Shown one piece after another: positions 16,148 to 20,826 of a stretch of 64,000 nt of DNA. The stretch is from Enhydrobacter aerosaccus (lineage in GTDB: Bacteria > Pseudomonadota > Alphaproteobacteria > Reyranellales > Reyranellaceae), in assembly GCA_903915535.1 (NCBI GenBank), contig CAIWTJ010000052.1, forward strand, positions 1 to 64,000. Direction: 5' to 3'. Position 1 is the first letter of the stretch, and the number at the start of each line of letters is the position of its first letter. The notes beneath the pieces were generated by a model. It was not told where the DNA came from. It made no database searches and was given only the letters and a program-made list of their open reading frames with translations. The translations under genes and the position numbers were made by a program.

Positions 16148-17080
16148 ATGTCCACGCTCCTGATCACCCACCCCGCCTGCCTCGGCCACGAGCCCGGCGA
16201 GCATCATCCCGAAAGTCCGCAACGCCTGCGTGCCGTCCTGGCAGCCCTCGAGGACCAGGCCTTCGCCGCCCTGAAGCGGCAGGCCGCGCCCGTGGCCACG
16301 GCCCAGGAGCTGACGCTCGTGCATCCGCCCGAGTATGTGGAAGCGATCCTGAACATCCGTCCCGAAGGCGACGACCTCGCGATGATCGACGGCGACACGC
16401 TGATGAGCGCGGGCAGCGCCGAGGCGGCCCTGCGGGCGGCCGGCGCTGTCGTGGCCGCCGTCGATGCCGTCGTCACCGGCCAGGTCGACAACGCCTTCGC
16501 CGCGGTTCGGCCGCCCGGCCATCACGCGACACCGACGGTGCCGGGCGGCTTCTGCCTCTTCAGCAACGTCGCGATCGGCGCGCGCCACGCGCAGATCAAG
16601 CACGGCATCGGCAAGGTCGCGATCCTCGATTTCGACGTCCATCACGGCCAGGGCACGCAAGCCACGGTCGAGATCGATCCGTCGCTGTTCTATGGCTCGA
16701 CGCACCAGTCGCCCTTCTATCCCGGCACCGGCTCGCCGCGCGAACGCGGCATCGAGGACAACGTGGTCAACGTGCCCTTGAGCGCCAATAGCGGCAGCGC
16801 CGAGTTCCGCGCCGCCTGGGCCGACCGCATCCTGCCTCAACTCGACCGCTTCGCGCCGGACCTGGTGATCGTGTCGGCGGGCTTCGACGCACACCTGCGC
16901 GATCCGCTGGCCCAGCTTCGGGTGACAACGGAGGATTTCGCCTGGATCACCGGCGAGTTGATGACCATCGCGCGGCGTCACGCGAAAGGCCGCTTGGTCT
17001 CGGCACTGGAAGGCGGCTACGACCTAGAGGCGCTGGCCGATTCAGCCGCTGCGCATGTTCGCGTGCTGATGGGTAACTAA
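16148..17080 (+). CDS. Histone deacetylase family protein (acetylpolyamine/acetoin-type amidohydrolase)
   Basis: This is a 310-residue arginase-fold deacetylase. Catalytic landmarks are 'RPPGHHATP' (His125, His126), 'DFDVHHGQGTQ' (zinc ligands Asp163 and His165) and 'VIVSAGFDAHLRDP' (third zinc Asp). Bacterial class II HDAC homologues remove acetyl groups from small amides such as acetylpolyamines, or act on unknown acyl-lysines, in the cytoplasm. It is divergent from the threonine synthase-like gene with only 31 bp between starts, so both promoters must be compact or lie within the genes. Confidence 0.92.
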   Translation: MSTLLITHPACLGHEPGEHHPESPQRLRAVLAALEDQAFAALKRQAAPVATAQELTLVHPPEYVEAILNIRPEGDDLAMIDGDTLMSAGSAEAALRAAGAVVAAVDAVVTGQVDNAFAAVRPPGHHATPTVPGGFCLFSNVAIGARHAQIKHGIGKVAILDFDVHHGQGTQATVEIDPSLFYGSTHQSPFYPGTGSPRERGIEDNVVNVPLSANSGSAEFRAAWADRILPQLDRFAPDLVIVSAGFDAHLRDPLAQLRVTTEDFAWITGELMTIARRHAKGRLVSALEGGYDLEALADSAAAHVRVLMGN

Positions 17081-17148
17081 TCCGACGCAAAACTGGAATA
17101 GATGGCAGCGAAGTTGCGTAGTCTTGTCGGCGTGCTACGGAAGAAACA

Positions 17149-19116
17149 ATGAATCTGCTTCGATTTTGGGGACTTTGCGCGGGCACGGCCGTGCTGGCGG
17201 CCGCCCTGCCGGCATCGGCGGATCCCGTGCAGCCGGGATCGGCCTTCTATGTCGGTGGCAACGTCGGCTACGGCTTCGGCACCGCGACCGCGACCTTGAG
17301 CGATCCCGGCGGTGGCGCTGCGGGCGGCGCGAACCGGACCGGCACGTTGTTCGGCGGCGCGCAGGCCGGGTACGAGCACTATTTCTCCAATCGCCTCATG
17401 CTGGGCGTCGAACTCGATGCCTCGTTCACGGGCTACATGGATTTCGCACAGGTCATGTCCTATCGCGCGACGGCGGCCGGCGGCGCCAACGAGCAGCTCG
17501 AATATCTCGCGACGGCGCGCGGTCGCATTGGGTACGCGATGGGCAGCTGGACGCCGTTCCTGACCGGCGGCTTCGCCTGGGCCAGCACGCGACTGTCGCG
17601 CACCGATTTCACCACCGGCTTCGAGGATGCGACGGCGGGCCGGCTGCGCGCGGGTTACGCGGTGGGTGCCGGTATCGATCATGCGCTCGACAAGAACTGG
17701 TCGGCGCGCTTGGAGTATCTCTACACCAACCTCGGCGCGACCAGTTACACGTTCGGCTCGGGCGCCCGTTACGATTCGCAATACGACCTGCATCGCTTCA
17801 GGGTCGGCCTCAATTACCGGTTTGGGCAAGAGGGTGAGGACAAGAGCCCGCCGGCCGACGACACCGGTCCCGGCAGCTTCGAGGTCCATGGCCAGTCGAC
17901 CTTCATCTTCCAGGGCTATCCCGCCTTCAGCGCGCCCTACGACGGACCCAACAGCCTGCCGGCCGGCGGACAGGCGCGCGAAACCTGGACGACGTCGCTC
18001 TTCCTCGGCGTACGCCTGTGGCGCGGGGCCGAGTTCTATTTCAATCCCGAGCTGCTGCAAGGCTTCGGCGTCGCCAACACGACGGGCGCCGGCGGATATC
18101 CCAACGGCGAGGCGCAGAAGTCGAACTTCCCCTACCCGCGCTTCAATCCCTCGCGCTTCTTCCTGCGCCAGGAATTCGGTCTTGGTGGAGAAACCGAGAA
18201 GGTCGAGGGCGAGTATGGCCAGCTCTCCGGCACCAAGGACGTCTCTCGCATTACCGTGCAGGTCGGCAAGTACGCCGTGCACGACCTGTTCGACACCAAC
18301 GACTACGCCCAGGACTCGCGGATCGACTTCATGAACTGGTCGATCTGGGCGTCGGGCGCCTTCGACTACGCCGCCGACCGCGTCGGCCTCACCTATGGCG
18401 CGAGCGCGGAGTTGAACCAGAAGGACTGGGCCGTGCGCGCGGGCTACTTCCTCATGCCCGCCGTGTCGAACGGCAACATCGCCGACTGGAACCTGTTCAG
18501 CCGCGGCGAATACGTCGCCGAGCTCGAGTTGCGGTTCAAGCCCTTCGGCAAGGAGGGTCAGCTGAAGGGTGGCCTCTTCCTCAACAGCGGCTTCTCCGGG
18601 TCCTACAACGATGCCGTGATCCTGGCCGCCGCCACCGGCACCGATGCCAACAGCGCGATGGCGCAGACGCGGCAGACCCGCACCAAGTACGGCTACTACC
18701 TCAACCTGCAGCAGGAGATCACCGACGATATCGGCGTGTTCGGCCGCTGGAGCTGGAACGACGGGCAAACCGAGATCATGTCGTTCACCGATATCGATGC
18801 GAGCTTGGCGCTCGGCACGTCGATCAAGGGAACGAACTGGAGCCGGCCGGACGACAGGATCGGCCTGGCCGGCGCGCTCAACATGCTGTCGTCAAATCAT
18901 AGCGCCTTCCTCGCAGCCGGCGGCCTCGGGCCGCTGGTCGGTGACGGCCAGCTGCCGCGCTACACGCCCGAAAAGGTCATCGAGGCCTATTACGCGGCCC
19001 AACTGTTCAAGGGCTTCGTCGCCACCGCCGACTATCAGCTCCTGATCGCGCCCGGCTACAATGCAGACCGCGGCCCGGCCCACGTCTTCAGCGGCCGCCT
19101 GCGCGCCAGCTTCTAA
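17149..19116 (+). CDS. Outer-membrane fusion: Omp25-like barrel plus OprB-like porin
   Basis: This 655-residue protein has a signal peptide (MNLLRFWGLCAGTAVLAAAL, cleavage near residue 24). Residues about 30-225 form an Omp25/31-type small beta-barrel with alternating strands ending 'DLHRFRVGLNYRF'. A linker rich in Pro, Asp and Gly (about 226-243) follows. From about 244 to the terminal Phe655, the 'FEVHGQSTFIFQGYPAF...' strands resemble the carbohydrate-selective OprB porins. Each half looks complete, so two pores may be tethered in the outer membrane. The frame is continuous with no stop between them. The ribosome site is GGAAGAAAC. Confidence 0.85.
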   Translation: MNLLRFWGLCAGTAVLAAALPASADPVQPGSAFYVGGNVGYGFGTATATLSDPGGGAAGGANRTGTLFGGAQAGYEHYFSNRLMLGVELDASFTGYMDFAQVMSYRATAAGGANEQLEYLATARGRIGYAMGSWTPFLTGGFAWASTRLSRTDFTTGFEDATAGRLRAGYAVGAGIDHALDKNWSARLEYLYTNLGATSYTFGSGARYDSQYDLHRFRVGLNYRFGQEGEDKSPPADDTGPGSFEVHGQSTFIFQGYPAFSAPYDGPNSLPAGGQARETWTTSLFLGVRLWRGAEFYFNPELLQGFGVANTTGAGGYPNGEAQKSNFPYPRFNPSRFFLRQEFGLGGETEKVEGEYGQLSGTKDVSRITVQVGKYAVHDLFDTNDYAQDSRIDFMNWSIWASGAFDYAADRVGLTYGASAELNQKDWAVRAGYFLMPAVSNGNIADWNLFSRGEYVAELELRFKPFGKEGQLKGGLFLNSGFSGSYNDAVILAAATGTDANSAMAQTRQTRTKYGYYLNLQQEITDDIGVFGRWSWNDGQTEIMSFTDIDASLALGTSIKGTNWSRPDDRIGLAGALNMLSSNHSAFLAAGGLGPLVGDGQLPRYTPEKVIEAYYAAQLFKGFVATADYQLLIAPGYNADRGPAHVFSGRLRASF

Positions 19117-19188: not shown

Positions 19189-20826
19189 ATGCAACTGCGC
19201 CGCCGCCATCTGATCGCCGCCTCGGGCGTTTCTGCCGCCAGTCTCGTCCTGCCGCGCATTGCGCTGGGCCAGGTCGACCGCCGGCCGAACGTCACCATCG
19301 CCGTGCAGCAGATCGCCAACAGCGCCTCGCTGGAGCCGCTGCGCGAGCAGTCCAATGTCGGCACCCGCACCTTCTCGTTCATCTTCGAGACGCTGATCAT
19401 GCAGAACCTGCTGAGCCAACTGGAAGCCAAGCCGGGCCTGGCCGAAAGCTGGAAGCGCATCGACGAGCGCACCGTGGAGATGGCCCTGCGCAAGGGCGTG
19501 AAGTTCCACAACGGCGACGAGATGACAGCCGAGGACGTGGTCTTCACCTTCAGCCGCGAGCACATGTTCGGGCCCGACTACGACATCTCGACCAACAAGA
19601 CCCTGTTCACCTCGGTGCTGGTGCGCGACTCGGTCGACGGCAAGAAGCTGCCGCCGGAAGTGCCGGCCGTCGCCAAGCGGCTCTTCCCCGCCCTGGAAAA
19701 GGTCGAGGCGATCGACAAGTACACCGTGCGCTTCGTCAACCGCACGCCGGACGTCACTCTCGAAGGCCGCCTGGGATCGCTGGGCAGCAACATCGTCTCG
19801 CGCCGCGCCTTCGACGAGGCCAAGACCTGGCTCGACTGGTCGCGCGCACCGGTCGGCACCGGCCCCTACAAGGTCCGCGAATTCCTCGTCGACCAGTCGC
19901 TGACGCTCGATGCCCACGAGGACTACTGGGGCGGCCAGCCGCCGCTCAAGAGCATCAAGATCGTCGTCGTGCCGGAAGTGGCCTCGCGCATCAACGGCCT
20001 GCTGACCGGCCAGTTCGACTTCGCCTGCGACATGCCGCCGGACCAGATTCCCGGCATCGAGAAGAACGCGAAGTTCGAGGTGCTGGGCAGCACCATCGTC
20101 AACCATCGCCTCACGGTGTTCGACAAGCACCATCCCCAGCTCGTCGATCCGCGCATCCGCCAGGCCTTCACCCACGCGATCGATCGACAGGCCATCGTCG
20201 AGAGCCTGTGGTCCGACCGCACCAAGGTGCCGGCCGGCCTGCAGTGGGAGTTCTACGGCCCGATGTTCGTCGCCGACTGGAAGGTGCCGGAGTTCGACCT
20301 CGCCAAGGCCAAGGCGCTCCTGAAGGAGGCCAACTACAAGGGCGATCCGATCCCGTACCGCCTGCTCAGCAACTACTACACCAACCAGGTGTCGACGGCG
20401 CAGGTGCTCGTCGAGATGTGGCGCCAGGCCGGTCTCAACGTGCAGATCGAGATGAAGGAGAACTGGCAGCAGATCTTCGACACAAACACCCAGCGCGCCG
20501 TGCGCGACTGGTCGAACAGCGCGGGCTTCAATGACCCGATCTCGTCGATCGTCGCCCAGCACGGCCCGCAGGGACAGCAGCAGCAGGTCGGCGAATGGAC
20601 CAATGCGGAGATGAACAAGCTCTCCGACGCGCTCGAGATAGAGACCGACATGGGCAAGCGCAAGGCGATGTTCCGGCGCATGCTCGAGATCTGCGAACGC
20701 GAAGATCCCGCCTACACCGTGCTGCACCAGAACGCGACTTTCACGGCCAAGCGCAAGGACATCCGCTGGAAAGCCTCGCCCACCTTCGCGATGGAATTCC
20801 GCTCGACCAACTTCGCGACGAACTAA
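19189..20826 (+). CDS. ABC transporter substrate-binding protein, family 5 (peptide/opine type)
   Basis: This 545-residue periplasmic binding protein starts MQLRRRHLIAASGVSAASL, a Tat-like signal, with AAGGAA upstream. The body has the DppA/OppA pattern: 'EMALRKGVKFHNGDEMTAEDVVFTFSR', 'VGTGPYKVREF' and 'DPRIRQAFTHAIDRQAIVESLW'. It would carry peptides, opines or other large solutes to an inner-membrane importer, but no Dpp/Opp-type permease lies nearby. Its stop is 3 bp from the convergent livF stop. A GTG at 19174 is a less likely start. Confidence 0.9.
   Translation: MQLRRRHLIAASGVSAASLVLPRIALGQVDRRPNVTIAVQQIANSASLEPLREQSNVGTRTFSFIFETLIMQNLLSQLEAKPGLAESWKRIDERTVEMALRKGVKFHNGDEMTAEDVVFTFSREHMFGPDYDISTNKTLFTSVLVRDSVDGKKLPPEVPAVAKRLFPALEKVEAIDKYTVRFVNRTPDVTLEGRLGSLGSNIVSRRAFDEAKTWLDWSRAPVGTGPYKVREFLVDQSLTLDAHEDYWGGQPPLKSIKIVVVPEVASRINGLLTGQFDFACDMPPDQIPGIEKNAKFEVLGSTIVNHRLTVFDKHHPQLVDPRIRQAFTHAIDRQAIVESLWSDRTKVPAGLQWEFYGPMFVADWKVPEFDLAKAKALLKEANYKGDPIPYRLLSNYYTNQVSTAQVLVEMWRQAGLNVQIEMKENWQQIFDTNTQRAVRDWSNSAGFNDPISSIVAQHGPQGQQQQVGEWTNAEMNKLSDALEIETDMGKRKAMFRRMLEICEREDPAYTVLHQNATFTAKRKDIRWKASPTFAMEFRSTNFATN

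Follow-up and report, generated by a model that had tools for sequence, protein, structure and literature searches.

The window, the whole stretch of 64,000 nucleotides that was analysed, carries on its plus strand (17149–19116) an open reading frame that runs uninterrupted from ATG to TAA and encodes a protein of 655 amino acids. Two Pfam domains follow each other along this protein: OMP_b-brl (PF13505) at residues 14–225, scoring 54.2 bits against a cut-off of 28.7, and OprB (PF04966) at residues 274–655, scoring 164.7 bits against a cut-off of 22.9. The only NCBIfam matches lay far below their cut-offs, one to an OmpA model (37 vs. 277 bits) and one to an AaxA model (22.4 vs. 600 bits). There is a single signal peptide, at the N-terminus, with cleavage likely after ASA. 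The original prediction had proposed two complete outer-membrane barrels fused in one protein, and its description of the gene (one open frame, its length and coordinates, an internal VGLNYRF at residues 219–225, a Pro/Asp-rich linker and a C-terminal Phe) agrees in every point with what we found. The parts of the gene are listed in Table 1.

Table 1. Parts of the double porin gene and their positions in the window.
Feature	Residues	Position	Strand	Basis
Signal peptide	1–25	17149..17223	+	Sequence; helix at 7–18 in the model, low pLDDT
First barrel, Omp25/31 type	26–225	17224..17823	+	Pfam OMP_b-brl and AlphaFold2 strands
Internal beta-signal of the first barrel, RVGLNYRF	218–225	17800..17823	+	Fits GxxPhixPhi
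Linker GQEGEDKSPPADDTGPGS, 18 residues, Pro/Asp/Ser/Gly-rich	226–243	17824..17877	+	Sequence, model
Second barrel, OprB-type porin with C-terminal Phe	244–655	17878..19113	+	Pfam, model, 4gey fold match
Stop codon TAA		19114..19116	+	Sequence

Upstream of the double porin and on the same strand lies a gene for a histone-deacetylase-type protein (16148–17080), and the nearest downstream gene on that strand encodes a family-5 solute-binding protein (19189–20826), after which a branched-chain amino-acid-type ABC set is found on the minus strand. In 17 of 30 same-genus loci, whose flanks differ in length, a deacetylase-like gene lies nearby. Antisense to the double porin runs an open frame of 563 aa (17077–18768, minus strand), probably a mere by-product of the high G+C content. 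In the window's own genome, which is 97% complete, the double porin is the sole OprB-family match, and OMP_b-brl is found in six places besides it.

A structure model was obtained with AlphaFold2 on a 42-sequence alignment (mean pLDDT 81.9, pTM 0.79); a single-sequence prediction was of no use (pLDDT 29). The first barrel is modelled with eight long strands between residues 32 and 224 and two short extra elements, with a pLDDT of 80–96 in each ten-residue block from 31 to 220. It is followed by a poorly ordered linker, in which residues 232–236 fall below a pLDDT of 50, and then by sixteen long strands reaching up to residue 654, again with two short extra elements. Since the strand count of the first barrel is even, the linker is probably periplasmic. 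Among solved folds the closest was 4gey, the OprB of Pseudomonas putida, with a Z of 27.9 and 355 residues aligned at an rmsd of 3.2. Among the matches that Foldseek listed, OmpA appeared at rank 38 (217 columns, E 3e-8), as a match to the whole model that is not localised to the first barrel, and the TonB-dependent receptors among 50 matches listed gave a query TM of only 0.18–0.25 with an rmsd of 15–27 against the whole chain. Searches of PDB sequences with the window protein returned nothing at E 1 in one case and two matches in the other, at E 0.19 and 0.38, neither of them noteworthy.

The first half thus passes the OMP_b-brl profile cut-off, has eight predicted strands and ends in GLNYRF at 220–225, and the second half passes the curated OprB cut-off and has the OprB fold. 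The Pfam domains, the two-barrel model and the 4gey match, which covers residues 231–655 of the model alone, together bear out the proposal of two complete barrels in one chain; structure prediction had been named as a check on it, and the model does not show a single barrel. One large merged barrel was rejected, as the OprB half by itself accounts for the match to 4gey and the TonB-dependent receptors align to the whole chain only at the TM and rmsd given above.

We asked how widely the fusion is shared. Eighty loci with relatives came from a scan of contigs. In the order of the window's organism some match was present in 48 of 76 genomes; within the genus, 33 of 65 genomes carry a near-full-length fused protein (in one, G039, it is in pieces), seven of these 33 have two fused copies, and none of the 11 genomes from other genera of the order gave a match. 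An even draw of the class yielded matches at 1e-40 in 11 of 387 genomes, with the fused protein in five, an OprB-only protein in seven and both in one, and the order of a Bradyrhizobium-like genome yielded matches in 23 of 297. The proteins of loci L038–L111 match nearly the whole chain of the window protein at 39–56% identity in the best segment (L103 and L104 partially), and these matches, with the trees of both halves, relate the window protein over both of its halves to fused proteins of Bradyrhizobium, Rhodopseudomonas and Afipia.

The fusion itself was likewise recovered when it was sought in relatives. Of 156 frames, 147 were kept as having at least 380 matched OprB residues, identical sequences being counted once, and 129 of these 147 distinct OprB-half sequences are fused, defined as having at least 200 residues ahead of the OprB match. 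An N-barrel profile match was counted in 128 of the 129 (the remaining row, L060, perhaps has an N region identical to that of another row). The other 18 are not fused; in 17 relatives the OprB half is on its own, and one of the 18, L106_2483, is labelled unfused as a copy cut by a nonsense codon in the OprB part. At this locus (L106:1454–3646) a tandem copy of the double porin has one stop codon inside its OprB part, and an intact copy adjoins it.

Conservation was measured for the two halves and for the linker. Compared with the nearest relative, L003, the window gene has a dN/dS (NG86) of about 0.14 in its N half (0.046/0.332) and of about 0.13 in its C half (0.046/0.351), with purifying selection acting on both. 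In 60 randomly drawn fused proteins (1770 pairs) the pairwise identities of the N halves correlate with those of the C halves (Spearman 0.89), as expected if the halves were inherited together. The linker has a median length of 21 residues among the 129 fused relatives, with 17–23 residues in the middle 80%, and is the least conserved region by mean majority fraction (0.44, compared with 0.55 for the signal peptide, 0.58 for the N half and 0.74 for the C half).

A missed stop or frameshift at 17820–17880, for which a check of the sequencing reads had been advised, is ruled out by the relatives: both halves lie in one open frame in 110 of 111 loci, a set in which six contigs are present twice, and the exception, L002, is a single-barrel paralogue. 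That two separate genes were joined by an error of sequencing or assembly has, in our judgement, a negligible chance. The C half does stand alone in some relatives, but the fused ones come from many assemblies, their linkers vary little in length and both halves of the window protein are under purifying selection; moreover, this protein has no Met between residues 226 and 300, so that no ATG start for a second half is seen there. The double barrel is therefore a real and conserved protein of an already described type, and not a sequencing error.

The fusion was also followed on trees of the two halves. On a tree of the OprB half the fused label takes 4 changes, 3 of them forced by starred branches (this tree leaves out L106_2483, L123_1 and L084_3277), and on the tree from the 147-row set it takes 5, again with 3 forced. 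On the tree of the N half, one clade (95/87) holds 50 of the 58 fused representatives, the outlying plasmid/Rhodopseudomonas group included; six Methylobacterium-type rows lie outside this main fused clade on a long branch, and a Methylosinus-type pair groups among single barrels. Two double porins, L151:2217–4736 on a Methylosinus plasmid and L143, have longer linkers (103 and 34 residues) and possibly represent an independent fusion, their first barrel grouping with single barrels. A single origin, exchange of domains, loss and additional fusions may all be candidates.

The original prediction had noted that no free C-terminal signal is available to the first barrel, and this is correct: its end signal sits inside the chain. 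The beta-signal read by BAM is described as a C-terminal motif, GxxΦxΦ (PMC13067283), and in the window protein the internal and the terminal signal are both intact. At the position of Phe225, Phe is present in 16 of 17 single barrels (one of which, L197_967, is one part of a tandem protein that is split in two) vs. 40 of 128 fused first barrels, seven N domains classed as 'other' being left out of these counts. The loss is unevenly distributed over the groups. Phe is found in 29 of 29 proteins of the window's genus, in none of 72 Bradyrhizobium-type proteins (where Ile, Val or Leu stands instead and residue 223 is typically Arg), in none of six Methylobacterium-type proteins (Pro, with an uncertain alignment of the motif), in none of four of the plasmid/Rhodopseudomonas group, in 6 of 11 of a second Bradyrhizobium-type group, and in 3 of 4 and 2 of 2 of the other groups. 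Among the 129 fused proteins, 124 end the chain with Phe, 2 with Tyr and three with another residue. This distribution suggests that the internal signal was lost about three or more times across groups; losses within a clade may be one event.

Other double-barrel proteins were met in the course of the searches. In the window's genus a set of loci (L186–L196, L198 and L199; for example L194:859–2208) encodes two tandem Omp25/31-type barrels in about 450–500 aa or more. At 1e-20 these tandem proteins have a match in 17 of 34 chosen same-genus genomes, and none in the window's genome. In genome G030 the tandem protein is split over two frames (L197). In a distant alphaproteobacterium (L173), an open frame spanning at least 692 aa closes with two Omp-type barrels. 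The tandem proteins of the genus keep Phe in 12 of 14 internal barrels and in 13 of 14 second barrels.

It is conceivable, though we would sooner doubt it, that the first barrel can be inserted without a beta-signal of its own, following on from the second. In that case BAM would engage the terminal signal of the chain once and build first the OprB barrel and then the 8-stranded one, in C-to-N order; a two-signal state would be seen in the window's genus and a one-signal state in the Bradyrhizobium-type members. The Phe kept in the internal barrels of the tandem proteins and throughout the fused proteins of the window's genus argues against this idea, as it shows that internal signals are often kept. 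With the signal lost in some lineages and kept in others, the family offers relatives in which to ask whether BAM needs a signal per barrel or per chain, and if the one-signal reading were true it would amount to a natural experiment in BAM assembly.

The chain might also be exported fused and then be cut in the linker into two separate porins. The low conservation of the linker and its disorder in the model would fit such a cut, as would the end signal that first barrels of the window's genus have kept, and the dual-barrel protein GfcD is described as degraded to two fragments of 30–35 kDa in small-micelle detergents (PMC8592465). We nevertheless regard cleavage as very improbable, because the length of the linker is well kept and the Bradyrhizobium-type first barrels are without the end signal that a freed barrel would be expected to need. 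We favour instead one chain that stays joined: exported by its one signal peptide, it would form two side-by-side barrels in the outer membrane, connected by a short periplasmic linker, and the 8-stranded barrel may be a covalently attached anchor or partner of the other; the beta-signal at the very end of the chain would be the chief one for BAM.

As for the substrate of the OprB-type barrel, two lines of evidence, the neighbouring genes and the promoters, point to a divalent metal. Of 148 loci, 8 from several lineages have an Nramp gene near a family member. Six were confirmed by Pfam within about 3 kb (L037, L103, L116, L148, L153 and L155); one, near L150, is an Nramp by annotation, Pfam having given no Nramp match on the L150 fragment; and one, on contig C7 of genome G078, is 0.7 kb from the porin of L120. 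At L037, which belongs to the window's genus, the Nramp gene follows the fused gene at about 60 bp on the same strand. In the group-wise tally of neighbours Nramp was counted per query, and its counts of 2, 1, 6 and 2 correspond to 1, 1, 3 and 1 loci. In 140 of the 148 loci no Nramp gene was present in the flanks examined, many of them only 1.5 kb long. Nramp genes are scarce (six whole genomes have only 15 in all), and the two in the window's genome are on other contigs than the double porin. CNNM/CorC genes were found in 51 of the 74 loci outside the genus (L038–L111, most of them titled Bradyrhizobium, Afipia or Rhodopseudomonas).

In Bradyrhizobium-type genomes a palindrome with the consensus TATTGCGAATTAATCGCAATA lies upstream of the fused gene. 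Within 2 mismatches, TGCGAATNATTCGCA is found there in 44 of the 74 non-genus loci, compared with 0 of 74 control coding stretches and 0.1 expected from shuffles. A degenerate 17-mer, at no more than 1 mismatch, has 52 sites in promoter zones that add up to 36,234 bp; these sites fall in 51 of the 74 loci (the other 23 lack it), and the remaining 654,882 bp of the same loci contain none. A p-value for this enrichment overstates independence, since the degenerate pattern was drawn up with the sites already in view and the sequences share ancestry. The strict 17-mer, at no more than 2 mismatches, occurs at 1 to 5 places in each of five whole genomes, with 0 or 1 for a reversed control pattern, and in all five one such place precedes the fused gene by no more than about 300 bases.

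Type-1 (mntH-like) Nramp genes carry the degenerate palindrome too: in 11 of 13 it coincides with the gene start or immediately precedes it. For the twelfth (L229) it is 235 bases ahead of the Nramp match, and the thirteenth, from another family, has none; among 16 type-2 Nramp genes it was found in none within 1 mismatch and in one within 2. The form TTGCAAATGAGTTGCAA occurs at or near the type-1 Nramp start in the Bradyrhizobium-type loci L225–L228 and L230–L236 and at L229:1266, with L235 differing by one base. Rhizobium is known to have Mur boxes ahead of mntH (PMC5575495), and the mntH of B. japonicum is described as being under Fur control (PMC11941057); by analogy the palindrome may be a Mur or Fur box. 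Its presence before both the fused gene and mntH in Bradyrhizobium-type genomes makes it a testable candidate operator. Upstream of the fused genes of the window's genus the palindrome is absent in all 30 loci, also within 3 mismatches, and 23 aligned same-genus upstream stretches contain no other conserved operator.

From the palindrome shared with mntH and the Nramp neighbours we consider it likely that the window gene, a double porin of the MnoP architecture, has in its OprB-type barrel a channel for a divalent metal, most probably Mn2+; for the window's organism Mn2+ is inferred from relatives, given the missing palindrome in its genus. The barrel would feed an Nramp-type inner-membrane importer, as for the MnoP of Bradyrhizobium. 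We think an ordinary porin function unlikely, in which the OprB half would admit small organic solutes such as sugars, peptides or sulfonates and have neighbouring ABC importers as its partners. Such a function would suit the name of the OprB family and the annotation of plasmid-borne members ('carbohydrate porin' in seven of eight records, 'Carbohydrate-selective porin OprB' in the eighth), as well as the SBP_bac_5 gene and the branched-chain amino-acid ABC set near the window gene, the NMT1-type binding protein and creatininase genes that are each present in 62 of the 74 non-genus loci, and an OprB-only copy in Cupriavidus that adjoins a nitrate/sulfonate-type ABC importer. Yet just 4 of 30 same-genus loci have the family-5 binding protein close by (flank lengths differ, many being 1.5 kb), the Nramp neighbours recur in distant lineages, the palindrome is common to mntH, and the characterised member, MnoP, is described as passing Mn2+.

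How does the double porin compare with known systems? MnoP is reportedly co-regulated with mntH, a finding ascribed to Hohle 2011. It is described as a channel for Mn2+, not for Co2+ or Cu2+ (PMC3449104), that is expressed under Mn limitation, and its locus tag is given as blr0095 (PMC6011978). A survey of 2016 presents this porin of Bradyrhizobium japonicum as a fusion of Omp_b-brl and OprB with 675 aa (TC 1.B.4.2.2), and the fusion as exclusive to alphaproteobacteria, in many genera (PMC4827864, Reddy and Saier 2016). By that account MnoP and the window protein share an N-terminal Omp_b-brl and a C-terminal OprB in one alphaproteobacterial chain of similar length (675 vs. 655 aa), and the window protein has this order of domains in one frame of about 650–700 aa. 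The original prediction had called the arrangement unusual, which holds insofar as few porins are fused, but the 2016 survey had already described precisely this arrangement; the window protein is thus a new member of the MnoP-type fusion, an architecture already in print.

Two differences set the window's genus apart from Bradyrhizobium-type genomes, where the comparison is with the members found here and not with the MnoP sequence itself: its fused gene is without the palindrome common to mntH (0 of 30 same-genus vs. 51 of 74 non-genus loci), and its protein retains the internal GxxPhixPhi that the Bradyrhizobium-type members do not. Since the operator common to mntH that marks MnoP proper is lacking, we file the window gene as MnoP-like by architecture and not as MnoP. 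What we think worth keeping from this analysis is the palindrome common to mntH and the finding that first barrels have lost their own assembly signal in some lineages but not in others.

Each barrel also has single-barrel counterparts. The fold of the second (residues 231–655) is that of the P. putida OprB, a single barrel with 16% identity to it. The first resembles Omp25/31-type proteins in its OMP_b-brl profile, its eight long strands and its GLNYRF end; those proteins end with the barrel, whereas here the chain continues into a second one. Multi-barrel outer-membrane proteins are said to have been treated by Solan et al. 2021. Proteins with several barrels per chain are described, GfcD being an example (PMC8592465, PMC11494523); GfcD is predicted to have 12- and 13-stranded barrels with a periplasmic domain between them, in contrast to the 8 strands, short linker and OprB barrel of the window protein. 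The double barrel is best placed with MnoP, an Mn2+ channel reported to work in proteoliposomes and, by the 2016 survey, itself a two-barrel protein.
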